Below, in pieces: positions 1,945 through 29,150 of a DNA stretch of 50,795 nt. Position numbers and translations under genes: made by a program. The stretch comes from a virus, in the IMG/VR virus record IMGVR_UViG_3300048592_000287, positions 1 to 50,795 of that record. One strand, written 5' to 3'. The notes beneath the pieces were generated by a model that was not told the DNA's origin, ran no database searches, and was given only the letters and a program-made list of their open reading frames with translations. Each line of letters begins with the position of its first letter. Position 1 is the first letter of the stretch.

Positions 1945-2423
1945 CTCCCGCCGAAGCGCGCAGGCACGCCGAGCGTGCCGCAGTCGCCGTCCTCCTCCGT
2001 ATGCGCGAGAACGCAGTGTCGAGGGGGCGGTTCGAGATCACGATCGACGACATCGACCACGTCGTCGAGACGCTCGCCGCCGAACGCATCGCCGCGATCG
2101 ATGCCGAGTCTCGCCTTCTCAGCGATGGGAACTGTCGCCGCACCGCTCCCATCGTTCCCGAGATCGACGATCGGTGCGCCGGCGTCGTGACCGATAGCGA
2201 GGGGCGCATCATCGGCGAGATCGCGCGTCTGGTGCCGGGCAATGAGCGCTGGGGGATCAGATTCAGCGCCGACGCCCCGCCGCCTGTCCCGACGGAGACG
2301 CACTGGGGCGTGCGCTGGTGGAGCGACATCGCTGGCGTTCTCGCTGCCGATGACCCGGCCGAGGTGCGGCGCCTCTACGCCGCCGCGATCGGCGGAGAGC
2401 AGGAGGACGAGTCCAATGCGTGA
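1941..2423 (+). CDS. Hypothetical protein (160 aa)
   Basis: No family recognised. The product has an acidic, helical N-terminal half (residues 1-65) and a Trp-containing C-terminal part (HWGVRWWSD near 120) that looks like a small folded domain. The ATG is chosen over an upstream in-frame ATG at 1875 because it overlaps the preceding stop as ATGA, and because the region before it carries another gene. It overlaps the following nuclease gene by 8 bases, so it is translationally coupled to the recombination module. A role in replication or recombination is suggested only by position. Confidence 0.65.
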   Translation: MTPAEARRHAERAAVAVLLRMRENAVSRGRFEITIDDIDHVVETLAAERIAAIDAESRLLSDGNCRRTAPIVPEIDDRCAGVVTDSEGRIIGEIARLVPGNERWGIRFSADAPPPVPTETHWGVRWWSDIAGVLAADDPAEVRRLYAAAIGGEQEDESNA

Positions 2424-3888
2424 CGTCCACCCATGCGTTGAGGACTGGCGTCGCCACGTCCTCCCCTCGCTCGTGTCGCCGCGCGTCATCATCGAAATCG
2501 GCGGCGTGCTCGAAACGGCGACAATCATCGGCAGCCGCGACGACGGAGACGAGACTGCCTACACCTGCATCGTCGAGTCGATCGCCTCCCGCTCGATCCC
2601 CGGCCGGTCCGGTCGCGTCGATCGCATCGCGGACGAAATCTTCCCGTGTTTCCGGCCCAGCTTCAAGCCGCTCGCCCGCTGCCCCGCGTCGGCGACGATC
2701 TCCGCATCGGTCACGTCACCGGGGAACGAGCTGACGCAGAGCGGGTCAGCCGCGCACGAGATCGACGCGCTGATCGAGACGACCGGCGCTGACTCGGGCC
2801 TGCCCGACGCGACGCTGGTGGCGATCGCCGTCCGCTACGGCGTGACCCTGACCGAGGCGCGCGATCTTGAGCGGACGATTCTCTGGCATCGCTCTCGCCT
2901 GGCGGAGCACGTCGCCCTCGGCGCGCAGGTCTCCCGCGAGTTCGGCCTGTTCGTCGAGATCGTCCCCGGTCTCTTCCTGATCGGGACAGTCGATCGCATC
3001 GCGATCTCGGCCGACGGTCGCTCCGCATGGATCGACGACCTCAAGACCGGATGGGGATTCGTCGAGGGCGCGGCGCACAACTTTCAGGCCGCGTGCTACA
3101 TCGTCGCCGTCGCCTACACGTTTCCGGCTCTCGATCGGATTGAGTTCTCGTTCCAGTATCCTCGCCGTCCGTTCGCGCCCGAGAGCGCGACAGCGACGTT
3201 CCTTCGCCACGACGTCGAGATCGACATCATGCCGCGAGTGCGTTCGGCGGCGCTCGACTCGATCACCCCTCACCCGCGATTCGTGACGGGGACTCAGTGC
3301 GCGGAGTGCAACGGCCGCGCCGTCTGCCCGGTGCTGCATCAGCACGTCGTCGCGCGCGTCACCGGCGACGACGCTGACGTCGTTCGCGCGTCGATTCGCC
3401 AGCTCTCACCCGATCAGCGTACGGCGCTCGCCGCCGACCTGATCGCTGCCGAGGCGTGGGCGAAGGCGGTCAGGCAGGCGATCCGCAACGCGGTCGAGAT
3501 CGACGGCGTCGAGGTCGCGACTCCCGACGGCCGCGTATTCGCGAACGTCGAACGCAGCAACCCGACGCGCGAGATCGACCTCGAAGCGTTCGCGCGCTCG
3601 ACGAACCTCGGCGAGGTGACTGCCTCGGCTGACGGCGTTCCGTTCGCCCACCTACTCGCCCAGGTCGGTCGCGTCCGCGAGAGCGCGCTGATCGATGCGA
3701 TCAAGTCAGCGGAGCGCGAGTCATCGCCGAAAGGCCGCCTGCCGAACGGGCGCGCTGCTGAGATCGTTGATCTCGTTCGCACGAACGCCGCGGCCTTTGG
3801 CGCGCTCGTCGAGACGCCGGCCACCATATTCACCCTCGTCGATCGCGCGGACCTTCCCGCCACCGACGCGCCCTCCTCCAACTCCTGA
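2416..3888 (+). CDS. PD-(D/E)XK nuclease, RecB/Cas4-like with Fe-S cysteines (DUF2800-like)
   Basis: A 490-residue protein with the layout of phage RecB-type exonucleases. Residues 86-93 read LARCPASA, the N-terminal cysteine motif of DUF2800-type proteins. Residues 109-116 (SGSAAHEI) fit the conserved helix with His. The nuclease core shows GTVDRI (190-195, D193), IDDLKTG (206-212, D208 and K210) and a Q...Y motif (Q223, Y228). CAEC plus a later Cys (C295, C298, C304) with C89 make four cysteines able to hold a 4Fe-4S cluster, as in Cas4 and AddB. The gene after it encodes a RecT-like protein, the usual partner of a 5'-3' resecting exonuclease. The start at 2416 follows AGGAGGA and overlaps the previous gene; a longer frame upstream is only a shadow of that gene. 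Confidence 0.8.
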   Translation: MRDVHPCVEDWRRHVLPSLVSPRVIIEIGGVLETATIIGSRDDGDETAYTCIVESIASRSIPGRSGRVDRIADEIFPCFRPSFKPLARCPASATISASVTSPGNELTQSGSAAHEIDALIETTGADSGLPDATLVAIAVRYGVTLTEARDLERTILWHRSRLAEHVALGAQVSREFGLFVEIVPGLFLIGTVDRIAISADGRSAWIDDLKTGWGFVEGAAHNFQAACYIVAVAYTFPALDRIEFSFQYPRRPFAPESATATFLRHDVEIDIMPRVRSAALDSITPHPRFVTGTQCAECNGRAVCPVLHQHVVARVTGDDADVVRASIRQLSPDQRTALAADLIAAEAWAKAVRQAIRNAVEIDGVEVATPDGRVFANVERSNPTREIDLEAFARSTNLGEVTASADGVPFAHLLAQVGRVRESALIDAIKSAERESSPKGRLPNGRAAEIVDLVRTNAAAFGALVETPATIFTLVDRADLPATDAPSSNS

Positions 3889-11514: not shown

Positions 11515-11801
11515 GAGAACGCTATCTCGTTTCCGCCCCTGACGGCGCTGCGATCATCGCCGGCCACTGGGTGCTCACCGGCGACGCCGCCACCCAGCGC
11601 GTCGCCCGCGTAGAGCGCATCATCATCGCCGCGACGACACCCCTGCAGATCACCCTCCGCCTGACGTGGTTTGAGGCGGACGGTTCAGAGATCGAAGGTC
11701 TCGCGCGTCTCTGTTGCGTTCTCGCCGCCGCCCCGACGCGGCCGGAGATAGAAGCGATCGCCGCGAACCTCCGCGACATGGACGGCGAGGTGACGCAATG
11801 A
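11511..11801 (+). CDS. Hypothetical protein (96 aa)
   Basis: Unknown. An N-terminal stretch with beta-strand character (ERIIIAATTPLQITLRLTWF) is followed by a helical C-terminus ending in an acidic helix. No membrane segment or motif is recognised. ATGA overlaps on both sides place it in the same coupled unit as the LexA-type regulator and the cytosine methyltransferase. Confidence 0.6.
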   Translation: MRERYLVSAPDGAAIIAGHWVLTGDAATQRVARVERIIIAATTPLQITLRLTWFEADGSEIEGLARLCCVLAAAPTRPEIEAIAANLRDMDGEVTQ

Positions 11802-13162
11802 AGTCGAAACGCCAACCCCGCGTCGAGATTCAAGCCGGCGACCTCACCGTCCGTTTCAGCGAGGCTGACCTCGACCGCTGGGCCGATCGACGAACTCCGC
11901 CAACGTCGTCGCCGCGCCTGCCCACCCGATCGCAGGCCAGTCGTGCGAGCCTATCCGCCGGCGCCGGGCGAGCCGCGCCGCCGTCCAGTGCACCCGCGCG
12001 AGGTGCTCTCATGACGACCATCGCGACGTTGTGCAGCGGGATTGCGGCGCCGGAGGTTGGTGCGGCGAGGGTGGGCGACATCCGCTCGCTCTGGTGCGCG
12101 GAGGTGGAGGCGTTCCCATCGGCAGTGCTGGCGGCGCGTTTCCCCGAGTCGCCGAACCTTGGTGACATCACCGCGGCGGACTTCGTGGAGCGGGCGCGGG
12201 GGATCGGCGTGCCCGACGTGCTGGTGGCGGGGACACCGTGCCAGGCATTCAGCGTGGCGGGGCGTCGTGGCGGGCTGGCTGACGCCCGCGGGAATCTCAC
12301 TCTCCGATTCGTGGACATCTGCAATGAACTCGACCCCTCGATCATCGTCTGGGAAAACGTGCCGGGCGTCCTGTCCGACGCGGACAACGCCTTCGGCTGC
12401 CTGCTGGGAGGACTGGCCGGGGCGGACGGTCCCGTCGAGCGTCCAGGGGGAGGGAGCTGGGCGCGTGTCGGTGTGGTTGCCGGGCCGCGCCGACGACTTG
12501 TTTGGCGGGTGCTCGACGCTCAACATTTCGGAGTCGCCCAACGACGCCGTAGGGTGTTCGTTGTCGCGTGTCCTTTGGGAGGGGCCGATCCCGTCTCGAT
12601 ACTGTTTGAGCGAGGTAGCGGCGGCGGGCATCCTGCGGCGGGCGGATCGAAGAGGGCGTGCGTTGCCGGCACATTTACGGCGCGCGCTCAGGGAGGTGGC
12701 GGGCTTGGGACAGACTTCGAGTGCGACGGAGGGCTGATCGCCCACACGTTGCGGGGCGAGGGATTCGATGCGAGCGAGGACGGCACTGGCAGGGGGACGC
12801 CGCTGGTGGTGTCGGCCGTGACGGCGAAGTGGGCGAAGGGGAGCGGTGGGCCGGCCGGCGACGAATGCCAGAACCTGATTGCGTTCAATGCGCGGCAGGA
12901 TCCCGACGTGAGCGGCGAGATCACGCAGCCTCTCGACACCGATGGGCACTCGATCGGGGTGCTGACTAGGTGGGCCGTCCGGCGGCTGATGCCGGTGGAG
13001 TGCGAGCGGCTTCAGGGGTTCGACGACGGGTGGACCGACGTCGAGCATCGCGGGCAGCCGGCGAGCGACGCCGCGCGGTATCGAGCCATCGGCAACAGCA
13101 TGGCGGTGCCGTGTCTGGAGTGGATTCTGGCGGGGGTGGGGGAAGGAGCAACAGAACGATGA
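11798..13162 (+). CDS. dcm-like: DNA (cytosine-C5) methyltransferase
   Basis: A SAM-dependent enzyme making 5-methylcytosine in DNA. Counting from the internal ATG at 12011, motif I is TLCSGIAAPEVG (6-17), motif IV GTPCQAFS with catalytic Cys77, motif VI ENVPGV (115-120), motif VIII QRRRR (177-181) and motif X AIGNSMAVP near the C-terminus. The segment between VIII and IX is Gly-rich with TARAQGGGG and HTLRGEG, the loose recognition region common in phage Dcm proteins. The ATG at 11798 overlaps the previous stop and adds 71 low-complexity residues. The core enzyme could equally start at 12011 (383 aa). It may protect DNA from host restriction or supply substrate for the modification genes downstream. 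Confidence 0.92.
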   Translation: MKSKRQPRVEIQAGDLTVRFSEADLDRWADRRTPPTSSPRLPTRSQASRASLSAGAGRAAPPSSAPARGALMTTIATLCSGIAAPEVGAARVGDIRSLWCAEVEAFPSAVLAARFPESPNLGDITAADFVERARGIGVPDVLVAGTPCQAFSVAGRRGGLADARGNLTLRFVDICNELDPSIIVWENVPGVLSDADNAFGCLLGGLAGADGPVERPGGGSWARVGVVAGPRRRLVWRVLDAQHFGVAQRRRRVFVVACPLGGADPVSILFERGSGGGHPAAGGSKRACVAGTFTARAQGGGGLGTDFECDGGLIAHTLRGEGFDASEDGTGRGTPLVVSAVTAKWAKGSGGPAGDECQNLIAFNARQDPDVSGEITQPLDTDGHSIGVLTRWAVRRLMPVECERLQGFDDGWTDVEHRGQPASDAARYRAIGNSMAVPCLEWILAGVGEGATER

Positions 13163-13467
13163 ACGAATCAATTTCGATGCACGATCTCCGCCCGGGCGCG
13201 ATCCTGCGGAGCATTCAAGACCGCGAACACGTCGTGTTCCACCGAATCGAGTCCGTGTCCGCTTCCGCCGCCACGATCACGGTCCTCAGCTCCGGCAACG
13301 GCCAGCGGAAGAACATATCGTGGGGGCACGCGCTCGCTCGCATGCGTCTCGTGGAGGGCGAAGAGCGTAATGCAGCACTCGCTCTGTTCGAGACTCTTCG
13401 GCGCGCGGACAGCGGCCGTCCTGCCGGCGCGCGGATGCAGAAGTTCCCGCGGCGGAGCGTTCGATGA
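13159..13467 (+). CDS. Hypothetical protein (102 aa)
   Basis: Not recognised. The first 60 residues look like a small beta barrel (DLRPGAILRS, then VVFHRIESV, then TITVLSS). The rest is helical and basic. It is coupled to the methyltransferase upstream and to the nuclease downstream by ATGA overlaps, so it may belong to the modification block. Confidence 0.65.
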   Translation: MNESISMHDLRPGAILRSIQDREHVVFHRIESVSASAATITVLSSGNGQRKNISWGHALARMRLVEGEERNAALALFETLRRADSGRPAGARMQKFPRRSVR

Positions 13468-14243
13468 GCGCCCCCTCGCACGAGGAGCTGAAGATCGCGG
13501 CCGCCCGCTGGGCACACGAGGCCGGCATGTTCGCGCTCTCCGAGTGGTCACTCGCCGGAGTGACGAAGCGCATCGATCTGATCGCGATCCCAACCCGGCG
13601 TGACGCCCCCATGATGATGCTCGCCCGCGAGAACGAGGACGGCGAGCTGACGCGAGAATCCGTCTCCATCCCGCTCGACTTCGACGACCCGGGCTTCGTC
13701 GCACGCCTGAACGCCGCCGAGGCGCGCAATCCCCCGGTCTGGTTCTGGGAGCGGCCCGGTTTCGTCGGGATCGAGATCAAGGCCTCGCGCGCGGACTTCC
13801 GCCGAGGACTGAAGGAGCGCCAGCTCGAGACCTACGCCGACATGTTCTCTGGCGTTTACCTGTTCACGGTTCCCGGCGTCGCGAAGAAAGCCGAACTGCC
13901 CGAGGGCATCGGGTGGCTCGTGTTCAACCCCGAGACTGGGCAGGTTCGCTGCAATCGCCACCCGAGGTTCGTCCGCCGCGACGAGGACGCGGTGGAGCTG
14001 TGGCGCGTGCTCTTCGCCATGGAGAGCACGCATCGCCGCGCGCTGAGGGACATCACTCGGATCATCAGGGAGGCGGCGCAACCGGAGGTCTCTGGATACC
14101 TGCTCAAGCGGATCGACGGGCTTCTCGAACGCAATGCCGGCGCCAGACACGACGACGCGCGTGCCCGGCTGTTCGAGGCGCTCAACAGCTGCATTGAGGA
14201 AGCCGAGGACTGGGAAGATCGCGCGTTGGCGGAGGGTGCATGA
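13464..14243 (+). CDS. MmcB-like PD-(D/E)XK family DNA-repair protein
   Basis: A 259-residue protein. Residues about 8-45 (ARWAHEAGMF, then KRIDLIAIP) provide the early conserved Asp. Residues about 98-133 (VGIEIKASRADFRRGLKERQLETY) hold the E-x-K motif and the following basic helix. Then comes YLFTVPG, as in MmcB/DUF2786-neighbour nuclease-like proteins. The helical C-terminus (170-259) is extra. MmcB proteins of alphaproteobacteria are DNA-damage linked; what this version does is unknown. It sits between the C5 methyltransferase and the ParB/glycosyltransferase pair, so processing of modified or unmodified DNA is an attractive inference. Confidence 0.6.
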   Translation: MSAPSHEELKIAAARWAHEAGMFALSEWSLAGVTKRIDLIAIPTRRDAPMMMLARENEDGELTRESVSIPLDFDDPGFVARLNAAEARNPPVWFWERPGFVGIEIKASRADFRRGLKERQLETYADMFSGVYLFTVPGVAKKAELPEGIGWLVFNPETGQVRCNRHPRFVRRDEDAVELWRVLFAMESTHRRALRDITRIIREAAQPEVSGYLLKRIDGLLERNAGARHDDARARLFEALNSCIEEAEDWEDRALAEGA

Positions 14244-14293: not shown

Positions 14294-15145
14294 ATGACAC
14301 GACCGAACCGACCAGCCTCGATCGAGGCACTCACGCCTGCCAACTACAACCCGAGGACGATCACGCCTGCGGCCGACGCAGGCCTCGCCGAGTCCATGAA
14401 GCGCTTCGGCGATCTCTCCGGCCTGACGATCAACCGCCGCGCTGACGGCTCGCACGTCATCGTCGCGGGCCACCAGAGGCGCCGCAAGCACCTCGAAGCG
14501 CACGGCGACCTCCCGATCGACTGGCTCGACGGCGAGCGCGGATTCTACACGACCCCCGACGGGCAGCGCTGGCCCGTCCGCATCGTCGAGCTGTCGCCGG
14601 CCGACGAGCGCGCCGCGAACCTGATCGCCAACTCCCCGCACGTCGCCGGCGAGTTCGACGACGCGAAGGCCGAGGCGATGCTCGCCGAACTCCGCGACAC
14701 GATCGGTGACGCCTTCGAGGCCCTGCGGTTCGACGCGCTGATGGCGGAGGTCATGCAGCACGCGCAGGACCAAGCGCCACCCAAGGAATCCTACACGAAA
14801 AAGATAGTCGCCCCGATTTACGAACCAAAGGGGGACTGCCCACCATCCCGAGACCTCTATGACGAGACCACGACCGCGAAGCTGCTTTCTGACATCGAAG
14901 CTGCCGACGTTCCAGACGATGTTCGGCTCTTTCTACGATCAGCAGCGACTCGACATACGAGGTTCAACTTCGCACGGATCGCCGAGTTCTATGCCCACGC
15001 ATCGCCAGCGGTTCAATCGCTGATGGAGGATTCAGCTCTGGTTATCATCGACTTCAACAAGGCGATAGAACTCGGGTTCGTGAACCTAACCGGTAAGCTG
15101 GCACAGATCGCCGACGTGGAGGGGTGGAACAATGACGAATCCTGA
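14294..15145 (+). CDS. ParB-domain protein of a DNA-glycosylation pair
   Basis: A 283-residue protein in two parts. Residues 8-130 are a ParB/sulfiredoxin-like nucleotide-binding domain (ANYNPRTI, then ESMKRFGDLSGLTIN, then VIVAGHQRRRKHL at about 55-67). Residues 166-283 (YTKKIVAPIYEPKG, then RDLYDETTTAKLLSDIEAAD, then LVIIDFNKAIELGFV) form a domain I associate with phage genes next to TAGT-type glycosyltransferases. It overlaps the glycosyltransferase gene by 14 bases, implying coupled expression and probably a joint reaction. Start 14294 is preferred because it follows CGAGGATCAACC, the recurrent leader; an upstream ATG at 14240 overlaps the previous gene. The DNA becomes visibly less GC-rich from about 14775, at the border between the two parts. 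Confidence 0.75.
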   Translation: MTRPNRPASIEALTPANYNPRTITPAADAGLAESMKRFGDLSGLTINRRADGSHVIVAGHQRRRKHLEAHGDLPIDWLDGERGFYTTPDGQRWPVRIVELSPADERAANLIANSPHVAGEFDDAKAEAMLAELRDTIGDAFEALRFDALMAEVMQHAQDQAPPKESYTKKIVAPIYEPKGDCPPSRDLYDETTTAKLLSDIEAADVPDDVRLFLRSAATRHTRFNFARIAEFYAHASPAVQSLMEDSALVIIDFNKAIELGFVNLTGKLAQIADVEGWNNDES

Positions 15146-16016
15146 CTTCTGCGCATTCATCCTGACGAACGGTCGCCCCGATCGCGTGTATACTTACCAG
15201 ATGCTCCGGCTCGCCGGATATACCGGCCCGATCCGTCTCGTGATCGACGACGAAGATCCATCGGGTCCAGAGTATCGCAAACGATATGGAGACGAGGTGA
15301 TCGTCTTCAGCAAGGCAGAGTATACCGACAAGTTCGACCTAGGAGACAACAACCACGAGAAACGGAACATTGTCACCTTCGCGCGGACTGCGGTTTGGAC
15401 GCTCGCGAAGCAAGTCGGCTGCAAGTGGTTCATCATGCTCGACGATGACTACACACAGATGTCGATTCGGTTCAACAGTCAGCTTCAATATATCCATCTG
15501 AAAGTGCGTCACAGCGCAGACGCCTTGTTTGCTTCGCTTGTCGAGTTTCTCGAAGTGTCAGGCGCACTAACAGTCGCGATGAGCCAAGGCGGCGGCGATC
15601 ACTTTGGCGGCGGCGGCGGCCGTTACAATCGCGATGGACCTATGTTGCTACGAAAAGCAATGAACTCTTTCGTCTGTCGCACCGATCGCCCGTTCTACTT
15701 CATGGGACGCCTCAACGAAGACGTAACAACTTATGTCACAGAAGGTCGTCGCGGCGTGCTTTTCTTCACGGTCATGCAGGCTCAGGTCAACCAGCTTGCG
15801 ACGCAGTCCAACGCCGGCGGGTTGACGACGGCCTATCTGGAAAGCGGGACATACTTCAAGACCTTCTACTCCGTGATGTTCTGCCCGTCCGCCGTGCGCG
15901 TTGGCACTTTGAGCGATCCACGCTCGCCGCACGTCAGGATTCATCACAAGGTCAACTGGAACGCCTGCGCCCCTAAGATCATCCGGGAGGAGTGGAGAAA
16001 GGCACGCGCAGAATAA
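15132..16016 (+). CDS. TET-associated-type DNA-base glycosyltransferase (TAGT-like, GT-A fold)
   Basis: A 294-residue putative glycosyltransferase. The N-terminus (FCAFILTNGRPDRVYTYQML) is the entry strand of a GT-A Rossmann fold. FIMLDDDYTQM (D104-D106) is the metal/nucleotide-sugar DxD-type site. The Gly-rich GGGDHFGGGGGRYNRDG region, KAMNSFVCRTDRPF, GRLNEDVTTY, TQSNAGG, YLESGTYFKTFYSVM and the HHKVNWN C-terminus match the TET-associated glycosyltransferase family of phages. That family adds sugar to oxidised 5-methyl-pyrimidines in DNA. The upstream partner is a ParB-domain protein. Its DNA is less GC-rich than its surroundings, suggesting transfer. No dioxygenase that would make the hydroxymethyl substrate is seen. 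Confidence 0.8.
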   Translation: MTNPDFCAFILTNGRPDRVYTYQMLRLAGYTGPIRLVIDDEDPSGPEYRKRYGDEVIVFSKAEYTDKFDLGDNNHEKRNIVTFARTAVWTLAKQVGCKWFIMLDDDYTQMSIRFNSQLQYIHLKVRHSADALFASLVEFLEVSGALTVAMSQGGGDHFGGGGGRYNRDGPMLLRKAMNSFVCRTDRPFYFMGRLNEDVTTYVTEGRRGVLFFTVMQAQVNQLATQSNAGGLTTAYLESGTYFKTFYSVMFCPSAVRVGTLSDPRSPHVRIHHKVNWNACAPKIIREEWRKARAE

Positions 16017-16075
16017 AGCCCCGCCCGTCCCGTTTTGTCTCGACCGCCCTCGCCGCCCTGCACAGGCTCCACACC

Positions 16076-16747
16076 ATGCCCCGCAAATCGACCTACAGCT
16101 CGCAGCCGTTCGACCGCGACGACCCCCTCGCCCCGATGGAGGGGGAAACCGTCCGGGCGATCGAGGCGCTCCACCAATACGTCGCGCTCGGCCCTGCGCG
16201 CTCGCTCGAAGAGTTGCGGCGGAAAACCGGAAAATCGTCCGATCGCTACCTCCAGCATTGGTCGTCTCGCTGGCGGTGGCAGGACCGCATCTCTGCCTGG
16301 GTCAGGACCGTCGGGCGGGCGAACACCGAACGCATCGCCGAGATGCAGGCGCAGGAGTCGTTCGCGGCGATCCAGCAGCTCAAGCGGATTGCCGCCGAGG
16401 CGTTCGCGGCGTGGGAGGCGTCGAAGGCGCCGCGCCGCCGCACGATCGAGGAGGCCGCGCTCCAGAAGGGCGGCGGCGAGGGTGGCCGCGCGAAACGAAC
16501 CGTCGTCACGGTCGAGTCGGTGGGCGATCCCCACATGCTGATTGCTGCGATCAAGGCCAACGACTCGCTCCGCCGGGCGCTGGGGACGGACGCCGCCGCC
16601 AAGGTCGAACTCGACTACGGGGAGCGGACTCTCGGCTCCGCGACGGACATGGCCGTCGCGCTGTCGAAGGCGGCCTCTGAGGTGGGCGGAGTGGCGGCCC
16701 TGCGCGACCTCCAGACCCAGCTACAGCGCGGGATTGAGAAAAAGTGA
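16076..16747 (+). CDS. terS-like: Putative terminase small subunit (HTH type)
   Basis: A 223-residue DNA-binding protein. Residues 20-85 (EALHQYVALGPARSLEELRRKTG followed by HWSSRWRWQDRISAW) match a phage family in which an HTH is followed by a W-x-W motif. That family is often found beside packaging genes and annotated as small terminase. The rest is helical with a basic insert, then a C-terminal oligomerisation-like region. The large terminase lies 4.5 kb downstream, so the link is positional and tentative. ATG 16076 has no strong Shine-Dalgarno; GTG 15992 in the same frame is an alternative inside the previous gene's tail. Confidence 0.6.
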   Translation: MPRKSTYSSQPFDRDDPLAPMEGETVRAIEALHQYVALGPARSLEELRRKTGKSSDRYLQHWSSRWRWQDRISAWVRTVGRANTERIAEMQAQESFAAIQQLKRIAAEAFAAWEASKAPRRRTIEEAALQKGGGEGGRAKRTVVTVESVGDPHMLIAAIKANDSLRRALGTDAAAKVELDYGERTLGSATDMAVALSKAASEVGGVAALRDLQTQLQRGIEKK

Positions 16748-17714: not shown

Positions 17715-18002
17715 ATGATCGCCAGCATCCCCACCTCAGAACGCCACATTTCCGTCGCCGCCGCCATCGAAGCCGAGGGCGACGACTCCACCATCCACCT
17801 GCTGCCCTATCGCGTGGCCTCCGACGCCGACGGCCTCGTTGCAGTATTCGACCGCGCTGACATCGCCGGCGGAATCGAACCGCCCTCCGACATGGAGATC
17901 GTCGCGACCATCTCCTCCGTGACCGACGACGACATCGCCGCAGCGCAGGCCGCTGTCGAGCGCCACGCCGGCAGCGAGTTCCGCCCCGTGCGGCGCGGCT
18001 GA
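17715..18002 (+). CDS. Hypothetical acidic protein (95 aa)
   Basis: A small acidic protein with an alternating strand/helix pattern (residues 10-70) and a basic last six residues. No family recognised. Its start is defined by the leader GAGGACCAGACCA. It lies between the hairpin units and the helicase-methyltransferase pair. Confidence 0.65.
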   Translation: MIASIPTSERHISVAAAIEAEGDDSTIHLLPYRVASDADGLVAVFDRADIAGGIEPPSDMEIVATISSVTDDDIAAAQAAVERHAGSEFRPVRRG

Positions 18003-18040: not shown

Positions 18041-19456
18041 ATGACCAAAACGACGACGCGACTCCGCAACGAGGAGAACGCACTTCGCGCCGACGACTAC
18101 TCCGCATTCATCTCAACGAAGGCACATCACCACTCCGACAGAGGAGTCGCACCGACATTTATCCCGGACGCGATGTTCGACTTTCAGTCGTATCTCGCGG
18201 AGTGGAGTATCCGCCGAGGATGCGGTGCCGTATTCGCCGACTGCGGCCTCGGCAAGACGCTCATTCAGCTCGTCTGGGCGCACAACATGGTGCTGGCAAC
18301 GAATCGCCCTGCGCTCATCATCACGCCGATCGCCGTGACGTTCCAGTTCCTGGAGGAGGCCGCCAAGTTCGGCATTCCAGCCAGGAAGGCGACCGGCGGT
18401 TCCGACGCGATCGTTGAGGTTATCAACTACGAGCGCATCCACCACCTCGACGCATCGGACTACTCCGCCGTATCGCTGGACGAGTCGAGTATCCTCAAAT
18501 CCTACGACGGGAAGAGGCGGAAGCAGATCACCGGGTTCATGAAGAACACGCGGTATCGACTTCTTTCGACTGCGACCGCCGCGCCGAACGACTACACCGA
18601 ACTCGGCACATCGAGCGAGGCCCTCGGCATGATGGGTCACATGGACATGCTCTCCCGATTCTTCAAGAACGACCAACACACCGTTGGCACTCGGCGATTC
18701 TGCGGGAAGACGCGCGAGTGGCGATTCAAGGGGCACGCCGAAGAGCCGTTCTGGCGGTGGGTCTGCTCGTGGTCGCGGTCAGCACGGCGCCCATCCGACC
18801 TCGGGTTCGACGACGGCCGAATGGTTCTACCGTCGTTGATCGAGAACGAGCATGTCGTCGATCATGAGTATTTCCGAGACGGCGAACTCTTCCCGGCCAC
18901 CGCCAGCGGGTTGCACGAAGAGCGCGCCGAGGCTCGCCAGACCGTCAGCAAGCGATGCGAAAAGGTCGTCGATTTGGTCAGCAACCGGAGCGACCAGTCG
19001 CTCGTCTGGTGCAATCTGAATGACGAGGCCGACAGCGTTTGCCAGATGCTCGACAGCGCCGTCCAGGTCAGCGGAAAGGACTGCGACGAATCGAAGGAGG
19101 AGAAGTTTCACGCATTCGCGAAGGGCGAGATAAAGGTTCTCGTCACGAAGCCGAAGATCGGAGCGTGGGGACTCAACTTCCAAAACTGCGCGCACTGCAC
19201 CTTCTTTCCCACGCACTCATTCGAGCAATACTATCAGGGCGTCCGGCGGCTGTGGCGCTTCGGGCAGAAGCGCAAGGTCGTCGTGGACATGGTCACGAGC
19301 CCGTCCGCGTCTGGCGTCGTGAACAACCTGCGGAGGAAGCAGTCACAGGCCGAGGCGATGTTCGACAGCATCACGAAACACATGGCCGAAGCGCTCACCA
19401 TCGAAGACGTCAACAAACACATCAACAAAGTGGAGATCCCATCATGGCTACGATAG
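18041..19456 (+). CDS. SNF2-like DEAD/DEAH-type helicase/translocase
   Basis: A 471-residue superfamily-2 ATPase. Walker A is DCGLGKT (67-73). Motif Ia follows as ALIITPIAVTFQF. Motif II appears as LDESS (146-150) in place of DEAH. Motif III is STATAAPND (about 178). The C-terminal motor half includes SLVWCNLNDEADSV, VLVTKPKIGAWGLNFQ and motif VI-like RRLWRFGQKRK. It probably translocates on duplex DNA using ATP. Its gene overlaps the following methyltransferase by 13 bases. Such a helicase/amino-methyltransferase pair recurs in phages and may act on hemi-methylated or replicating DNA. The exact function is unknown. The start follows GAGGACAGAC. Confidence 0.85.
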   Translation: MTKTTTRLRNEENALRADDYSAFISTKAHHHSDRGVAPTFIPDAMFDFQSYLAEWSIRRGCGAVFADCGLGKTLIQLVWAHNMVLATNRPALIITPIAVTFQFLEEAAKFGIPARKATGGSDAIVEVINYERIHHLDASDYSAVSLDESSILKSYDGKRRKQITGFMKNTRYRLLSTATAAPNDYTELGTSSEALGMMGHMDMLSRFFKNDQHTVGTRRFCGKTREWRFKGHAEEPFWRWVCSWSRSARRPSDLGFDDGRMVLPSLIENEHVVDHEYFRDGELFPATASGLHEERAEARQTVSKRCEKVVDLVSNRSDQSLVWCNLNDEADSVCQMLDSAVQVSGKDCDESKEEKFHAFAKGEIKVLVTKPKIGAWGLNFQNCAHCTFFPTHSFEQYYQGVRRLWRFGQKRKVVVDMVTSPSASGVVNNLRRKQSQAEAMFDSITKHMAEALTIEDVNKHINKVEIPSWLR

Positions 19457-20442
19457 ACCAGAAGCACACGGACAGCTACTCAATATACAACGGCGACTGC
19501 TGCGAGGTCATGGCATCGCTTCCTCGCGGGTTCGTTGACCTGTCCGTATATTCCCCGCCGTTCGGCGGTCTTTACAACTACAGCTCAAGCGACCGTGACC
19601 TCTCGAACTGCGCCTCGTATGAGGAGTTTTTCGATCACTACTCGTTCGTCGTTGGAGAGATCGCGAGGCTCACGAAGCCGGGTCGAATGACTGCCGTCCA
19701 CTGCATGGACGTGCCGTCTGGAAACTCCGGGAAGGATTGCCTGCGCGACTTCCCTGGCGACATCATTCGCCTACACGAGAAGCACGGGTTCCGCTACATC
19801 GCGCGCTACTGCGTGTGGAAGGAACCGCTCGCGGTCAGACTGAGGACGATGGCAAAGAACCTCGCCCACAAGACCATCGTGGACGATTCGTCGCGGTGCT
19901 CGGTCGCGTCTGCCGACTACCTGCTGGTGTTCCGCCGCGACGGCGAGAACGCGGTCCCGATCGCTCACCCCATCGGCCTGACGGAGTATGCCGGTTCGCG
20001 GCAGATGCCCGCCGACGTCCTGTCCTACAAGGGATGGACCGGCAACCAGATCGAGAACCGATTCTCGCACTGGATCTGGCGCAACTACGCGAGCGCGTTC
20101 TGGGACGACGTTCGGCTCGATCGAGTCCTGCCGTTCCGCGACTCCAAGAGTGAGGACGACGAGAAGCACGTCCACCCTCTTCAACTCGACGTCATCGACC
20201 GCGTTGTCACGCTGTGGAGCAATCCCGGAGAAACCGTCTTCACGCCGTTCATGGGAGTCGGCTCGGAAGTTTACTCGCCGGTGCTCCTTGGCCGCAGGGG
20301 TGTCGGCGTGGAGCTGAAGCAATCCTACTATCGGCAGGCCATCGCGAACATGGAATCCATCGAGAGCCGCATCGGCGAGGCCGAACAGGCGACGATTTTC
20401 GAGTCGATGTTTGAGCCGATCGCCCCGTCGGAGAGCAACTGA
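19444..20442 (+). CDS. Beta-class DNA amino-methyltransferase (N4-cytosine or N6-adenine)
   Basis: A 332-residue SAM-dependent methyltransferase. The catalytic motif IV is SPPF (37-40) within DLSVYSPPFGGLY, and the SAM-binding motif I comes later as FMGVGSEVYSPVLLGRRGVGVELK (about 282-305). That IV-then-I order is the beta class. S/DPPF/Y motifs occur in N4-C and N6-A enzymes, so the base cannot be fixed. The ASYEEFFDHYSFVV and GRMTAVHCMDVP segments match a widespread phage methyltransferase. Its start lies inside the helicase gene, so the two are coupled. No restriction endonuclease is visible, consistent with anti-restriction or regulatory methylation. Confidence 0.88.
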   Translation: MATIDQKHTDSYSIYNGDCCEVMASLPRGFVDLSVYSPPFGGLYNYSSSDRDLSNCASYEEFFDHYSFVVGEIARLTKPGRMTAVHCMDVPSGNSGKDCLRDFPGDIIRLHEKHGFRYIARYCVWKEPLAVRLRTMAKNLAHKTIVDDSSRCSVASADYLLVFRRDGENAVPIAHPIGLTEYAGSRQMPADVLSYKGWTGNQIENRFSHWIWRNYASAFWDDVRLDRVLPFRDSKSEDDEKHVHPLQLDVIDRVVTLWSNPGETVFTPFMGVGSEVYSPVLLGRRGVGVELKQSYYRQAIANMESIESRIGEAEQATIFESMFEPIAPSESN

Positions 20443-23038: not shown

Positions 23039-25489
23039 ATGTCGATCATCTCCTCTCTCTCCGCACTGTTCGCATCGAAGAGCGACCGGCCCGCGCCGGT
23101 GACGCCGCCTGCCGCGCCGCTCGACCGGTCCATGATCTTCGACCTGATCAACCCAGCGCCGCGGTCTGGACCAAGCGCAGGAGTGACTGACGAGGCGCCG
23201 CTGTGGTCGTCGCTGTCCCCCTACATCGGCGGCAACCCGGCAGGGCAGCAACGATTCACGCAGGCGACGGAGTGCTATGATGAGGACCGCGGCGGACTGA
23301 CTGTCTGGTCGCGCGACGCGGCGTTCTACGATCGGTTGCAAGAGACAGCCGACAAGAACCTCCACGTCGCCGCGCTGATCGAACAGCGGGGCGCCGAGGT
23401 GCTATGCCTCCCGCGCCGCATCGTTGTCGATTCAACCGATCCCCTCGCTCAGGATATCCGCGAGTTCGTCGAGAACGAGGTGTTCAACTCGCCCGACCAG
23501 CTCCCGCTCAATCAGCGCCTCGCTCAGATTCTCAACGCAGTCTTTTGGGGATTTTCGGTCCACGAGATAATGTGGGGAGTGCGACCGGGCGATCGCATCG
23601 GAATCGACGCGCTCGCCTACCGCTGGCCCGGTCAGTTCGTCTTCGATGCGAGCTGGAATCTCTACATGTCCAGCGGCTACGGAGCAAAGCTCGAAAAGAT
23701 GCCCCGTGAGAAGTTCATCGTCGCGCGCGGCGGGTTTCCTATCCTCTGGGACAACCCCTACGGCAACGGAATCCTCCACCGCCTGCGATACGTTGACGCG
23801 ATCAAGCGCAACGTCGAGCGCTACTGGGTTTTGTTTGCCGAGCAGTTTGGAGCCCCGACCGTCATCGCGAAGATGCCGCTCGGCGCGAACGATCGAAAGA
23901 ACCTCTATGACGAGGTCCGCGCGGCGCTCAACGGCCTCGGGAAGCGGCTCGGAATCCTGCTCCCGAAAGACGTCGAGTTCGACGAGCTGTCGCGCATGGC
24001 GCCGGCGAACGGCCGCACGGTGCATCAGGCGATCTTGAAATACATCAGCGACCTCGAGGCCCAGCTCATCCTCGGATCGACGCTCACGACGGCTGAGGCG
24101 GAGAAGGGGACGCGCGCCCAGGCCGAGGTGCATCAGACGACGTCGGAGAAGCGCACCGAGGCCGACGCATCGTCGCTCTGCGACATCATCAACCGCCAGC
24201 TCATCGCGACGCTCGTCCGACTGAACTTCGGCGAGCTGCCGCGCGAGATGGTTCCCTATTTCGTGATCGACACGGACCCTGGCGAAAACCTTACCGAGAA
24301 GGCCGCGCTCTACACGACGCTCGTCCGCGACCTGAATCTGGCGATCAGCGAGTCGCACCTGCGCGAGGTCTTCAACGCGCCAGCGCCCGACGACGTTGAC
24401 GACGACAACGAGCCGCCGCCTCCCACCACCCCGCCAGCCTCGAAGACGGTGGCCGCTCCGGCGATGCGAGATTGCGGATGCGCGCCGATCGCCGCGTTCG
24501 CGGACAGGGAGGCGTCGTTTGTGACGCCGGCGGCAGTTGCTCGCATCAGGTCGTGGGGCACGGCGAGCGATCGCCTCTATGCAGAGATGCTCGCCGACGT
24601 GCGCGCCTGGTTCATGCGCTGGCGCGACGCGGTGATCCCGTATCTAGAGGGCGACGACATCGTGACGATCAGGGCAGTCAACCTCGCGACGCCGGAGAAC
24701 CTGCCGCGCGAGCTACTCGTGAAGCGGTGGATGCAGGCCGAGGCGCTGTCGGCGATCCGCGCGATGTCTGACACGCTCGACGACTTCTCCGATCAGGGAG
24801 CCGACTCCGTGCTCGCCTCTGACAGCGACGTGGTCGCGAGCTTCGCCGATCCTGTGTCGGATGACCTGTTGGCCTACCGTCAGGGTGTGGAAATCCTCCA
24901 GTCGCGCGACATCGTGACGGAGAGCCAGCTCGCCAGCTACCAGACGATGCTCGTGGCGCAAGGCGTCCGCGAGGAAATCGTCGCCAGCGTCGCGCGCGCT
25001 CGCGCCCTGGTCTTCGCCGGCGACGTATCATCGGCAGTTACCGCGCTGGTCCGCGACTCGCTCGTCACTGCGGCGCGCGATGGAATCTCGTTCGCCGATT
25101 GGCGAAAGACGTTCGACGACGTGCCAGTCACCGACCTCCCAGGCAGCGGCTCGCAGGCGCGGATGGAAACGATCTACCGCACCGAGGTGAATCGGGTCTA
25201 TCACGAGCAGCGCGAGGCGCTCTACGCCAAGCCGGCTGTGGCGTCGCGCCTCCTCGGGTTCGACTGGTATAACCCGAACGACGACCGCTCTCGCGAGACG
25301 CACGCAGCGCTGATCGGCTTCATCCCGATCGACAGTCCGTCGGCGTCGGAAGTGCCGCCGCTGTCATACAACTGCCGCTGTGCGAAGTTCCCGGTGATGA
25401 AGCGGCCGGGGCGAGTCGCTCCCGAGGTAGACCGCGAAGACCTCGCCGCGCGATGGAACACGACGGAACGATTTCGGGTTTCGGACTGA
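23039..25489 (+). CDS. Portal protein (DUF935, Mu gp29-like) fused to Mu F-like head morphogenesis domain
   Basis: One 816-residue frame holds two proteins that are separate in Mu. Residues about 60-450 match the DUF935 portal (TVWSRDAAFYDRLQETADK, ALIEQRGAEVLCLPRR, GFSVHEIMWG, GNGILHRLRYVDAIKRN, ALNGLGKRLGILLPKD, ISDLEAQLILGSTLTT). A Pro-rich linker (about 461-475) leads to a C-terminal part ending in the Mu F/gp7 motif (TIYRTEVNRVYHEQRE, then PPLSYNCRCAKFP near 790). The portal ring is the vertex channel for DNA; the F-type domain assists early head assembly inside the capsid. The stop is followed by an intrinsic terminator. Confidence 0.88.
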   Translation: MSIISSLSALFASKSDRPAPVTPPAAPLDRSMIFDLINPAPRSGPSAGVTDEAPLWSSLSPYIGGNPAGQQRFTQATECYDEDRGGLTVWSRDAAFYDRLQETADKNLHVAALIEQRGAEVLCLPRRIVVDSTDPLAQDIREFVENEVFNSPDQLPLNQRLAQILNAVFWGFSVHEIMWGVRPGDRIGIDALAYRWPGQFVFDASWNLYMSSGYGAKLEKMPREKFIVARGGFPILWDNPYGNGILHRLRYVDAIKRNVERYWVLFAEQFGAPTVIAKMPLGANDRKNLYDEVRAALNGLGKRLGILLPKDVEFDELSRMAPANGRTVHQAILKYISDLEAQLILGSTLTTAEAEKGTRAQAEVHQTTSEKRTEADASSLCDIINRQLIATLVRLNFGELPREMVPYFVIDTDPGENLTEKAALYTTLVRDLNLAISESHLREVFNAPAPDDVDDDNEPPPPTTPPASKTVAAPAMRDCGCAPIAAFADREASFVTPAAVARIRSWGTASDRLYAEMLADVRAWFMRWRDAVIPYLEGDDIVTIRAVNLATPENLPRELLVKRWMQAEALSAIRAMSDTLDDFSDQGADSVLASDSDVVASFADPVSDDLLAYRQGVEILQSRDIVTESQLASYQTMLVAQGVREEIVASVARARALVFAGDVSSAVTALVRDSLVTAARDGISFADWRKTFDDVPVTDLPGSGSQARMETIYRTEVNRVYHEQREALYAKPAVASRLLGFDWYNPNDDRSRETHAALIGFIPIDSPSASEVPPLSYNCRCAKFPVMKRPGRVAPEVDREDLAARWNTTERFRVSD

Positions 25490-25519
25490 TCGGCCCGGCG
25501 GGTCTGCCGATTGGTCCGC

Positions 25520-25565
25520 GCGGGGCGCGCCTTCTGTCCTCGAGGTCGCGCCCCGCACTGTTTTT
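25520..25565 (+). terminator. Intrinsic terminator after the portal gene
   Basis: GCGGGGCGCG (25520-25529) pairs perfectly with CGCGCCCCGC (25547-25556), with CCT/AGG extending the stem inside. The right arm is followed by ACTG and a T5 run (25561-25565). The strong stem plus T tract between two genes makes a rho-independent terminator or a partial one that lowers downstream expression. Confidence 0.75.
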
Positions 25566-25603
25566 GTGGAGCGGCGGCGAATCGCTGTGGTTCAGTGGAT
25601 TGC

Positions 25604-26785
25604 ATGAGCACCCTGAACACCGCCGACACGACCGGGCGATGCAATTTCAGCGACGCCCCGCTTTTTTTCGATAACTTCCCGTCCGTTGACGACGGCAACG
25701 GCATGACCGGCTGGGTCGAAATCTTCCGCGCCGGAGACTACGGCGAGCGGGGAAAATACGGAGCGACCGAGCTGGCGCGCTTCGTCGAGAACTTCGGCGC
25801 CGAGGTCGTCCGCGTCCCGCTCACTCGTGACCATATCCGCGAGGGCCACGCGCTCGGATGGGTGCGGGAACTGAAAGTCGAAGGCGACGTTCTCATGGCG
25901 CGATTCGGAGACGTGGACGACTGGACGCGCGAGGCGGTCAACCGCGGCATGTGGGGCGCCGTTTCGATCGAAGCATGGACCGGCGTCCCGATCGGTCTCC
26001 CCGCCGGCGTGGTCCTTGAACCGCCGACGCTCTCCGCCGTCACGCTGCTCGGCGCCAGTCAGCCGGCCGTGAAAGGACTTAAGCAGCCCAAGTTTTCGGA
26101 CGTCGCTGGCAACTCCGCGCCGTCCTCCACTCCGGTCGAGAAACCCGCGACCGACCTCATCCTCAACTACATGGAGACGAAACCCATGCCGACCGAAATC
26201 ACCACTCAGGATCAGACCGACCGTGTCGCGGAACTCGAATCGAAGCTCGCCGCGTCCGAATCCGCAGCCTCGAAGTTCCGCGCCGATGCGGAGGCCGCGA
26301 GTGCCGAACGCGACAAGCTCAAGGCCACCATCGGCACGTTCTCGGAACGACTCGACGTCGCCACGAAGCAGATCGCCCAGCTCAACGAAGACAAGGCGTC
26401 GGCCGAGTTCGATCGTCGCTTCTCCGACCTCGTGAAGAGCGGCAAGGTCACGCCGGCGGAGCGCGAGATTCTCCGCGCCCAGCACAGCGCGAACCGCTCG
26501 CTCGACAGCGTGGACGGCGCCGCGGAGATCAAGTTCGGCGATCAGACGTTCTCGCACGTCTCCCTGTTCTGGCACGGCCTCGAGACGCGCCAGCCCGTCG
26601 TCGAGTTCGGCCAGCTCACGCAGTCGGGCGGGAGCCGATCGGCTTCGAGCGATCCCGACCTCGCGCTCTCCGAGGCGATCAAGTCGCTCGCCGCCGAGAA
26701 GAATCTCACCTATCCCGACGCGATGAAAGAACTGCGCCGGACGCGCCCCGCCCTGTTCGCGGACGCGGAAGCCGCCGTCATCTAA
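25604..26785 (+). CDS. Capsid maturation protease (Mu I-like) with C-terminal scaffold
   Basis: A 393-residue protein. Residues about 35-150 resemble Mu gpI-type head proteases: GWVEIFRAGDYG, then VPLTRDHIREGHALGWVRELKVEGDVLMARF, then an EAVNRGMWGAVSIE helix/strand typical of the family. Residues about 205-270 are a coiled coil (VAELESKLAASESAAS and ISQLNED-type heptads), and the C-terminal helix is charged, as in scaffolds. It would act inside the prohead to drive assembly and then clear the scaffold. ATG 25604 is chosen; a TTG at 25511 in the same frame lies inside the terminator hairpin. An internal start at 26186 probably makes scaffold alone. Confidence 0.78.
   Translation: MSTLNTADTTGRCNFSDAPLFFDNFPSVDDGNGMTGWVEIFRAGDYGERGKYGATELARFVENFGAEVVRVPLTRDHIREGHALGWVRELKVEGDVLMARFGDVDDWTREAVNRGMWGAVSIEAWTGVPIGLPAGVVLEPPTLSAVTLLGASQPAVKGLKQPKFSDVAGNSAPSSTPVEKPATDLILNYMETKPMPTEITTQDQTDRVAELESKLAASESAASKFRADAEAASAERDKLKATIGTFSERLDVATKQIAQLNEDKASAEFDRRFSDLVKSGKVTPAEREILRAQHSANRSLDSVDGAAEIKFGDQTFSHVSLFWHGLETRQPVVEFGQLTQSGGSRSASSDPDLALSEAIKSLAAEKNLTYPDAMKELRRTRPALFADAEAAVI
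26186..26785 (+). CDS. Nested scaffold protein from internal start (predicted)
   Basis: In the same frame as the protease, ATG 26186 is preceded by GGAGACGAAACCC, a plausible ribosome-binding site, at the boundary between the protease part and the coiled coil. The product would be 199 residues comprising coiled coil and charged tail. Mu I/Z and lambda C/Nu3 make scaffold the same way. Prediction from sequence only. Confidence 0.5.
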   Translation: MPTEITTQDQTDRVAELESKLAASESAASKFRADAEAASAERDKLKATIGTFSERLDVATKQIAQLNEDKASAEFDRRFSDLVKSGKVTPAEREILRAQHSANRSLDSVDGAAEIKFGDQTFSHVSLFWHGLETRQPVVEFGQLTQSGGSRSASSDPDLALSEAIKSLAAEKNLTYPDAMKELRRTRPALFADAEAAVI

Positions 26786-26826
26786 CCCGCTGAATCCCCA
26801 GACCACAAACGCAGGAGCACAATCAC

Positions 26827-27588
26827 ATGACCACCGTGAACACCAACGGTCAGGGCTACGCGCGAACCTACACGCACGCCAACGGCGGGAGCGCGGCCGC
26901 GCCCTACTCTGATCTCATCAACCGCTTCGTGGACGACAACTCGACGACGGCGCTCTCGCACCTCTGCGACATCGCTGGCGCCGGTGCAGTCGCCGTCGGC
27001 GTCGTCAATGACGTCGGCGTCGGCGCAAGCACGAGCCTCCCCGCTTCCGTCATCGTCAGCGGGCACGCACTCCTCTTCGTCAACGCCGCGACCTATCCTC
27101 TGGTGCCTGGCGATCCGATCAAGTGCGACGCCTCCGGTCTCGGCGTGAAGGCGCAGATTCCGGGCGAGCGCTACTTCGCGCGCGCCGTCGGATATGCGGC
27201 CGCCAACGCCGTCCTCCTCGAAGTCATCGTCGAGAACGGGACTGTCCCGACCGGCGTCGGATTCCAGACGCTGACGGCGATCACCGGAGCGACCGGCGGA
27301 GCGATCACGGCCGCGCAGCTCGCCGCTGCACAGCACTCGTCTCTCGAAATGTCCTACGCCGGTGCCGCGGCTCTCGCGATCCCCGGCGCGGCGCCGTCGA
27401 ACAAGGGCAAGCGCATCCGGATCGTGAAGACAGGAACCGCCGGCGCGATCACGATCACGCCCGCCTCCGGGACGATCGCTGGCGGAGCGACGCACGCCGC
27501 GATCGACGCCGACAACGACTTCGCGACCTTCCAGTCTGACGGCGTGTCCGACTGGGTGCTGATCGCGGACGAAACCACCATCGCGTAA
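26827..27588 (+). CDS. Capsid decoration/cement protein
   Basis: A 253-residue Gly/Ala-rich protein without charged enzymatic motifs. The first 140 residues include VPGDPIKCDASGLGVKAQIPGERYFARAVGYA, in the style of DUF2190 capsid-cement proteins (G-D-x-V/I, G-x-KAQ, A-VG-A). The second half (TGATGGAITAAQLAAAQHSSLEMSY onward) looks like a small beta domain of head fibers. It lies between protease and major capsid genes, the usual place for a decoration protein that sits on hexamers. GCAGGAGC lies before the ATG. Confidence 0.65.
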   Translation: MTTVNTNGQGYARTYTHANGGSAAAPYSDLINRFVDDNSTTALSHLCDIAGAGAVAVGVVNDVGVGASTSLPASVIVSGHALLFVNAATYPLVPGDPIKCDASGLGVKAQIPGERYFARAVGYAAANAVLLEVIVENGTVPTGVGFQTLTAITGATGGAITAAQLAAAQHSSLEMSYAGAAALAIPGAAPSNKGKRIRIVKTGTAGAITITPASGTIAGGATHAAIDADNDFATFQSDGVSDWVLIADETTIA

Positions 27589-27630
27589 CGGCAAGCCGAC
27601 GCACAAACTCTCACTCACGGAGATCAGAAC

Positions 27631-28635
27631 ATGAGCACCAGTGCTTCTTTCCCCAGTCGGCATCTGACCGGCTTCGTCGCCGGTCACGGGGCGCCGACGC
27701 ATCTCGCGTATCCGCGCCTGTTCGCGCCGATGCCGGTGCAGCTCCAGTCGGATACGTTCGACGTTTTCGACGCGGCCGCCGAGTCGCTTCGCGCGATGGA
27801 CATCCTCATCGGCCCGCGGGACAAGGCCCCGCAGGTGGACCTCAGCACGACGACCGACACCTACGCCGCGAAAGTGTATGGCGCCATCGCGTCCTACACG
27901 CCGTCGGAAGTGCGGAATGCGTCGAGCGCGCTCAACGTCCAGGAGGCGAAGGCAAAGCTGGCCCTCCGCATCCTCCAGGCGAATCTTGAGCGCGTCCTCT
28001 CGGCCGGATTTCAGGCCGCGATGACGACCGCGTCGAAGGTCTACACGCCGGCCGGATCGGGCACCGACTACGTGTGGGACGACTACACGAGCGGCCGCAG
28101 CTATCCGATCCGCGCCCTGCGCGCTCAGATCGCGGTGGTCACCGACGCGCTGTGGGCTGACCGCGAGACGCTCAAGATCACCGTCGGCCTCGACGAGAAG
28201 GTGATCGACGGCGTAGTCGAGCATCCCGAGGTGCTCGCTCGCGTCTCGGGCGGATCGACGAGCGACAGCCCTGCGCGAGTCGGCCTGCTTCGTCTCGCCG
28301 AACTGCTCGAGGTGGACGAGGTCATGCGACTCAACAGCAAGACCAACACCGCCGCGGCTGGCGTCTCGACGCCGGTGATGACGCGCACATGGAACAAGGG
28401 CGGGTTCATCGTCGCGGAGCCGAGAGGCCCCGCGGGAATGGACACGCCGTGCTTCGGCAAGCTCTTCAACTGGGACGGCTACACCGAACTCGGCATGAAG
28501 AGCGAGGGCGGCATCATCGTGGACATGTGGAAGGAGCCCAACCCGGAGGTCACCTACGTTCGCGCGCGCCATTCGTGCGACGCGAAGATCACCAACGCCA
28601 GCGCCGCCCGCTACCTGTACGGGCTGATCGCCTGA
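27631..28635 (+). CDS. Major capsid protein
   Basis: A 334-residue protein, the length and position expected of an HK97-fold shell subunit. Features: a long hydrophilic N-arm helix region (VQEAKAKLALRILQANLERVLSAGF, about 110-135), a central P-domain-like part, and a C-terminal beta region (MWKEPNPEVTYVRARHSCDAKITNASAARYLYGLIA). It follows protease/scaffold and decoration genes and precedes connector genes. There is no sequence motif specific enough to prove the fold, so the call rests on composition, length and gene order. GGAGATC lies before the ATG, and high expression is expected. Confidence 0.82.
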   Translation: MSTSASFPSRHLTGFVAGHGAPTHLAYPRLFAPMPVQLQSDTFDVFDAAAESLRAMDILIGPRDKAPQVDLSTTTDTYAAKVYGAIASYTPSEVRNASSALNVQEAKAKLALRILQANLERVLSAGFQAAMTTASKVYTPAGSGTDYVWDDYTSGRSYPIRALRAQIAVVTDALWADRETLKITVGLDEKVIDGVVEHPEVLARVSGGSTSDSPARVGLLRLAELLEVDEVMRLNSKTNTAAAGVSTPVMTRTWNKGGFIVAEPRGPAGMDTPCFGKLFNWDGYTELGMKSEGGIIVDMWKEPNPEVTYVRARHSCDAKITNASAARYLYGLIA

Positions 28636-29033
28636 TGAGCAAGGCGACCCGCAACAGCGTCGCGATCTCGATCTTCGACGGGCGGAAGGGCTCGAAGCTC
28701 TTCCGCCTCGTCGGGGAAACGCCGCGCGGTCGGATGCGTGGCGCCGAGTATGCGACCGAGAAGCGACTGAAGGCGTTCGGCATTCCCGTCCACGCGATGG
28801 TGATGTCTGGCGCACTCGAAGCGGTCGATCAGGACGAGGCCGACGCGATGGTGTCGGCGGCTATCGACCTGATGGCAGGAATCATCGAAGAGGACGACGG
28901 AGAGGCGACCGTTACGATGGTGGACGAGACATCGTCCGAGATCAACGACGACGCCCCAGTGGTCATCATGCGCTCGACCAAGCCGGAACAGGGGTTGCAG
29001 AAGGTCGGACGCCCGAGGCGCCGGATCGAATAG
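28635..29033 (+). CDS. Hypothetical head-module protein (132 aa)
   Basis: A small charged protein starting in a TGATG overlap with the capsid stop. Residues 5-60 mix basic strands and helices, residues 70-105 are very acidic, and the C-terminus is basic (GRPRRRIE). Mu-type phages often carry a small gene of unknown function here. A strong terminator follows. Function unknown. Confidence 0.65.
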   Translation: MSKATRNSVAISIFDGRKGSKLFRLVGETPRGRMRGAEYATEKRLKAFGIPVHAMVMSGALEAVDQDEADAMVSAAIDLMAGIIEEDDGEATVTMVDETSSEINDDAPVVIMRSTKPEQGLQKVGRPRRRIE

Positions 29034-29063
29034 CGCCACTTATTCCGCGCCCGCGTGACACTG

Positions 29064-29106
29064 AACGCCGCTTCGCGACTGATAACTGGCGCGCGGCGGC
29101 GTTTTT
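29064..29106 (+). terminator. Intrinsic terminator after the capsid genes
   Basis: AACGCCGC (29064-29071) pairs with GCGGCGTT (29096-29103). A two-base bulge separates this from an inner CGCG/CGCG, giving about 12 bp of stem. It runs straight into a T5 run (29102-29106). It ends the capsid transcription segment. The next gene starts 45 bases on, after a GGAGAT site. Confidence 0.85.
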
Positions 29107-29150
29107 GTTGATAGTGACTGCGTAACAATCAACCACGGAGATTTCAGACA

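Follow-up and report, generated by a model that had tools for sequence, protein, structure and literature searches.

We found that the conserved companion of a viral TAGT glycosyltransferase appears, from sequence comparison, to be a domain of about 115 residues at the C-terminus of the adjoining 'ParB' gene, and not ParB itself. The window, meaning the whole stretch of 50,795 nucleotides that was analysed (IMG/VR record IMGVR_UViG_3300048592_000287), was compared with its relatives, and we consider it probable that the two proteins form a two-part, DNA-tethered glycosyltransferase, which would modify phage DNA late in infection with neither TET/JBP nor dCMP-hydroxymethylase and would thereby protect packaged genomes. 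An earlier note on this DNA had described a pair of ParB and TAGT genes. Both genes are real and lie at 14294-15145 and 15132-16016 as it had placed them, but ParB did not hold up as the conserved companion, being optional in relatives. The features of the locus are:

14294..14779, plus strand: N-terminal ParB/Srx-fold domain (phrog_620, phrog_498, Foldseek Noc/ParB; GC3 0.90, like its neighbours)
14780..15145, stop included, plus strand: C-terminal partner domain, CTD-A (all-alpha; companion of TAGT in 172/172 assessable loci)
15132..16016, plus strand: TAGT glycosyltransferase (PF20691, E 3.6e-27)
16070..16747, plus strand: terminase small subunit (phrog_6299, E 4.5e-13), directly 3' of TAGT

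The ParB-like and TAGT ORFs share 14 nt, and a second in-frame ATG lies upstream of the ParB-like start, at 14240. The identity of the TAGT protein is certain. It matched PF20691 with 96.1 bits, against a curated cut-off of 27.5, and phrog_842 with an E value of 2.6e-61. The invariant motifs DDY, QGGD/GG, RKAMN and N-D-Y were all kept, and the motif set DDD, GGD/GG, RKAMNSF and N-ED was likewise intact, with every invariant A3 column present in the window protein. The N-terminal half of 14294-15145 has a ParB/Srx fold. Its match to ParB_N in Pfam was weak (E 0.09, under the cut-off), and the protein matched phrog_620 (E 4e-26) and phrog_498, a ParB-DNA methyltransferase family (E 1.7e-14). An AlphaFold2 model of the protein matched Noc/ParB structures in Foldseek (E 5e-5 to 1e-3), with weaker matches to sulfiredoxin (Srx, E 0.06) and SbnI. 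The layout of a partition ParB (ParB, then HTH and dimerisation domains) was absent; the partner domain of TAGT takes up the C-terminal half. The terminase small subunit is a conserved neighbour outside the proposed enzyme. Directly 5' of the pair, 13464-14243 encodes a nuclease-like protein with a weak match to phrog_5429 (MmcB-type 'DNA repair protein'), and in Muribaculaceae prophages a nuclease-like gene also seems to sit 5' of the pair.

The relatives in IMG/VR numbered at least 588, and the locus set was built from 80 IMG/VR loci fetched by TAGT, loci fetched by CTD-A, 14 loci from bacterial genomes and three annotated phages. When the 'ParB' protein was used as the tblastn query, matches in Vibrio and Haloarcula viruses spanned the C-terminal half only, with 47-50% identity. 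A profile scan found CTD-A and TAGT together in all 172 assessable loci; the two genes abutted or overlapped in 168, and were 0.3-2.3 kb apart in the remaining four. The only TAGT locus without CTD-A was L080, whose record begins within TAGT. Conversely, TAGT lay directly 3' in 75 of the 76 newly fetched loci that had been found by CTD-A alone. Mean identity among relatives was 30% for the ParB part, 48% for CTD-A and 49% for TAGT, and the ParB part was dispensable or exchangeable, being missing in a subset of them. In mirror-tree analysis the correlation between CTD-A and TAGT was highest (Pearson 0.63), which is weak evidence because ParB correlates with CTD-A as well (0.51). The dN/dS ratio was well under 1 in most comparisons of relatives (two CTD comparisons left out), and the genes of the pair therefore appear to be under selection. 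Natural fusions of CTD-A to TAGT-A were not present among the loci examined.

A second TAGT subfamily, TAGT-B, carries a small partner of its own, domain B (GMPxF...KTKxIWxP), at these loci:

L193 1285-2839, minus strand: domain B and TAGT-B as separate genes, in a Pseudomonadota prophage
L204 4713-5912: domain B and TAGT-B
L203 4692-5861: domain B and TAGT-B

L193 shares its TerS type, and very nearly its ParB domain, with the E. coli version of the locus, but differs from it in the TAGT subfamily and the C-terminal domain, so that domain B and TAGT-B substitute for CTD-A and TAGT-A between the same ParB and the same TerS. Domain B forms the N-terminal part of a single protein with TAGT-B in Aeromonas phage Aeh1 and Vibrio phage 1.076.O, the latter fusion having been established by reading the sequence of the phage. 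Since partner and TAGT are swapped together and can be one polypeptide, a physical complex of the window pair is supported by analogy.

The base composition of the window divided the 'ParB' ORF at the same place. GC3 was 0.90 in the ParB half, 0.645 in CTD-A and 0.69 in TAGT, with other measured genes at 0.77-0.89, and no other 1.2 kb of the record had a GC as low as that of CTD-A plus TAGT (0.555, z -4.1). The GC edge, at 14781, is within the ORF and coincides with the domain boundary, which suggests that CTD-A and TAGT arrived as a single unit that then joined a separate ParB domain. N-terminal GC exceeded that of the CTD in 33 of 59 high-GC loci of relatives; the shift is thus not general, and the argument from GC is confined to the window.

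The part of the protein that is not conserved with TAGT may serve to hold it on DNA. The same ParB module forms the N-terminus of the phage DNA methyltransferase family phrog_498. Of 12 CTD-A proteins without ParB, 9 carried QxxLF close to the N-terminus (0.3 expected), with starts such as MKQVTLF, MKQFTLF, MKQVNLF, MKQTNLF, MKQFDMF, MQQDLF and similar, compared with 2 of 124 ParB-bearing proteins (2.9 expected). The window protein has ParB in place of this motif, which we take to be that of bacterial sliding-clamp binding. We propose that QxxLF replaces ParB as a putative clamp tether in the ParB-less relatives; the motif is short, needs at least two origins on the tree and falls mostly within one clade. 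T4 alpha-glucosyltransferase binds a clamp, gp45, and is tethered by it (PMC13216743), as the partner subunit of the ParB-less relatives may be through its clamp-type motif. Both the clamp-type motif and the ParB module shared with DNA methyltransferases suggest DNA as the place of action.

In the mechanism that we favour, TAGT (15132-16016) and CTD-A (14780-15145) would be two subunits of one DNA glycosyltransferase, with CTD-A binding TAGT and presenting DNA to it, and the ParB/Srx domain (elsewhere a clamp-binding peptide) keeping the complex on DNA. Late in infection, beside packaging, TAGT would take sugar from a nucleotide-sugar and attach it to a phage DNA base, and the packaged, modified genomes would resist restriction in the next host. 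Because no step by TET/JBP or dCMP-hydroxymethylase was recognised, the acceptor would be either a native base or a hydroxyl of unrecognised origin. Our preferred guess is the exocyclic amine of an unmodified base; alternatively, an unrecognised activity, possibly that of the partner domain, would supply a hydroxyl.

The consensus of CTD-A reads YTxKIxxPIYEPxG...FLxxAAxRHxxFxxxxIAEYYAHA...QxLMExSALVIIDFxKAIExGFV, and its AlphaFold2 model was all-alpha, with core pLDDT above 90. No family was found for it in Pfam or NCBIfam and no significant PDB fold by Foldseek, and the only two entries matched in a viral structure library by Foldseek were both own-family-like by identity. A search of PDB chains with the CTD-A profile gave designed armadillo repeats and an adhesin, low-value helical matches that were not considered credible. 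As the fold resembles nothing known, we infer the role of CTD-A from its linkage. The partner could instead be a hydroxylase-like enzyme that makes the acceptor group in place of TET/JBP, with TAGT then glycosylating it. The one-to-one obligate pairing, the absence of recognised hydroxylation routes and the conserved CTD-A positions R-H, Y-x-H, E, S and D are in its favour, but we think it unlikely. The two conserved histidines are replaced by F, Y, K or Q in part of the family, which speaks against their forming a metal site, and a metal enzyme was rejected for this reason. Moreover, the domain, all-alpha and of about 115 residues, has no enzyme-like fold match, and the analogous domain B is a small appendage fused to TAGT-B.

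Terminase and portal genes of several unrelated families lie 3' of the pair in most relatives, with a terminase-large match after the pair in about 37 of 52 sampled loci (families summed, which may overlap). The pair of E. coli phage 683R6 sits 3' of Q, between the lysis genes and terminase, and late expression is suggested on that account. This position could also be explained if the target of TAGT were a protein (terminase, portal or capsid) and not DNA. We hold such a target to be quite improbable, since the pair is conserved while the terminase and portal types vary, putative DNA tethers (a ParB fold or a clamp motif) go with the pair, the pair of Vibrio phage Va1 is located among replication genes and not among packaging genes, and the characterised TAGTs of T2 and T6 act on DNA (PMC13216743). 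Elsewhere in the window, a tRNA-Glu (CTC) at 17859-17934 on the minus strand overlaps a plus-strand ORF amid small genes without known function. A helicase (Helicase_C, SNF2-like) and, directly after it, an N6/N4 DNA methyltransferase (together at 18041-20442) lie between the TerS gene and the portal region. The genome is mosaic, in that Mu-type head genes (Portal_Mu, Mu F, Gp36, virion morphogenesis; 23039-30085) coexist with DnaB and a PD-(D/E)XK nuclease (2416-3888).

As the earlier note had claimed, no TET/JBP dioxygenase was detected in the window. Pfam hmmscan of about 50 proteins, including those at 5476, 6550, 7468, 13159 and 13464 that it had singled out, returned no dioxygenase family; the scan took in the proteins of a linear and perhaps incomplete record, apart from the tape-measure protein and several small ORFs. 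PF12851 (TET/JBP) had no match in the window, 50 relatives or 398 Pseudomonadota genomes, nor in a pair-carrying E. coli genome, in searches run without a positive control. PF00303 (dCMP/dUMP hydroxymethylase) was absent from the window by both hmmscan and genome search, and from 33 of 34 relatives, many of whose records are fragments, such that genes missing there may lie elsewhere. T6 served as the positive control for PF00303, with a match adjoining its TAGT, and the single match among relatives, in Vibrio phage Va1, could represent a normal thymidylate synthase. The scanned window proteins gave no match to the alpha- and beta-glucosyltransferase families PF11440 and PF09198, and the literature searched held no nucleoside data for an isolate with the pair.

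The pathway considered in the earlier note would run from a C5 methyltransferase to 5mC, on to 5hmC by a hidden TET-like or host activity, and then to the addition of sugar by TAGT. The cytosine-C5 methyltransferase is real and complete (11798-13162, PF00145 E 3.3e-35), 1.1 kb upstream of the pair, and the family owes its name to TET-linked members. However, the methyltransferase occurred in only 1 of 34 other pair-bearing records and so is not tied to the pair, which leaves the 5mC-to-5hmC reading unsupported; together with the lack of a dioxygenase match among the scanned window proteins and, in a search without a positive control, of a TET match in the E. coli genome, this makes the pathway very doubtful. 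In E. coli, at the least, the host is an improbable source of the hydroxymethylated base: the pair is frequent in this species and TET was not found there. It is scarcely credible that the ParB protein is a plasmid-like partition protein or nuclease with TAGT as unrelated cargo, for although it has a ParB fold and databases name it 'ParB-like partition protein' or 'putative ParB nuclease', its ParB domain is optional and its C-terminal domain is not, and the latter has a common GC shift with TAGT and is exchanged together with it.

No other modification genes recurred near the pair among relatives. A few loci had accessory genes in or beside it:

L070 1296-2288 and L076 843-1811: His_Phos and cytidylyltransferase
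L123 3083-5474: CofD-like/HAD and MobA-like NTP transferase (NTP_transf_3)
L039 5479-8390: TAGT-methyltransferase fusion, then a radical SAM/SPASM protein

These genes, rare among the loci, would fit dedicated synthesis of a sugar donor and tailoring of the sugar. Among the hosts are Bacteroidota, Pseudomonadota, Lactobacillus, Nocardia and Haloarcula. The E. coli prophage version, annotated as ynaK followed by a 'GREB1-related' or 'hypothetical' protein, consists of ParB, partner domain and TAGT before terminase, the same module order as in the window. At least 80% of the pair was present in 885 of 5,426 complete E. coli genomes, and with the pair largely intact in these it is testable with ordinary E. 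coli tools. The ynaK of the K-12 Rac prophage (L175 378-641) is truncated, with the ParB start retained and both TAGT and the partner domain gone; close 3' of it is ynaA (tape-measure-like).

Hypermodification linked to TET/JBP, which joins a C5 methyltransferase, TET and a glycosyltransferase, is reportedly the subject of the paper that named TAGT (Iyer et al. 2013) and of later metavirome work. It has TAGT in common with the window, which also has a C5 methyltransferase; the window differs in that no TET was found and that the methyltransferase is not conserved with the pair. The beta-glucosyl-HMC-alpha-glucosyltransferases of T2 and T6 are TAGTs of the same family, PF20691, and extend a sugar on hmC (PMC13216743). 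T6 carries a member, which adjoins a gene of the dCMP-hydroxymethylase family, and the phage has no partner domain; the window differs in both respects. T4 alpha-glucosyltransferase has an unrelated GT-B fold, acts on hmC and has no separate partner subunit. Mu Mom is a late-expressed, anti-restriction DNA modification that puts a carbamoylmethyl group on adenine N6 and needs no pre-modified base. Its sequence is unrelated to the window pair, and our proposed model resembles the T-even glucosyltransferases in chemistry and Mom in timing.

A TAGT without TET is not new in itself, being known from T2/T6 and from solitary TAGTs in 288 of 753 phage genomes (PMC13216743). What appears new here is the obligate partner domain, its occurrence in two versions and the exchangeable putative DNA tethers, of which we found no description in the literature searched, which did not include Iyer et al. 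2013. With slightly less than even confidence, we suggest a widespread system, shared by viruses of bacteria and archaea, whose TAGT and partner glycosylate DNA in the absence of TET/JBP or hydroxymethylase, through direct attack by a native base amine or on an acceptor made by the partner. To our knowledge, DNA glycosylation begins from a hydroxymethylated base. If the model is true, a pair with neither source of such a base would open a new way into DNA glycosylation, and direct use of an unmodified base by a GT-A enzyme would be new chemistry. The pair is a likely part of the answer to a puzzle raised in print, that of 'solitary' TAGTs. It also offers a testable model for how modification enzymes may be tethered to DNA, by a ParB fold or a clamp motif, and the model predicts a counter-defence role against restriction.
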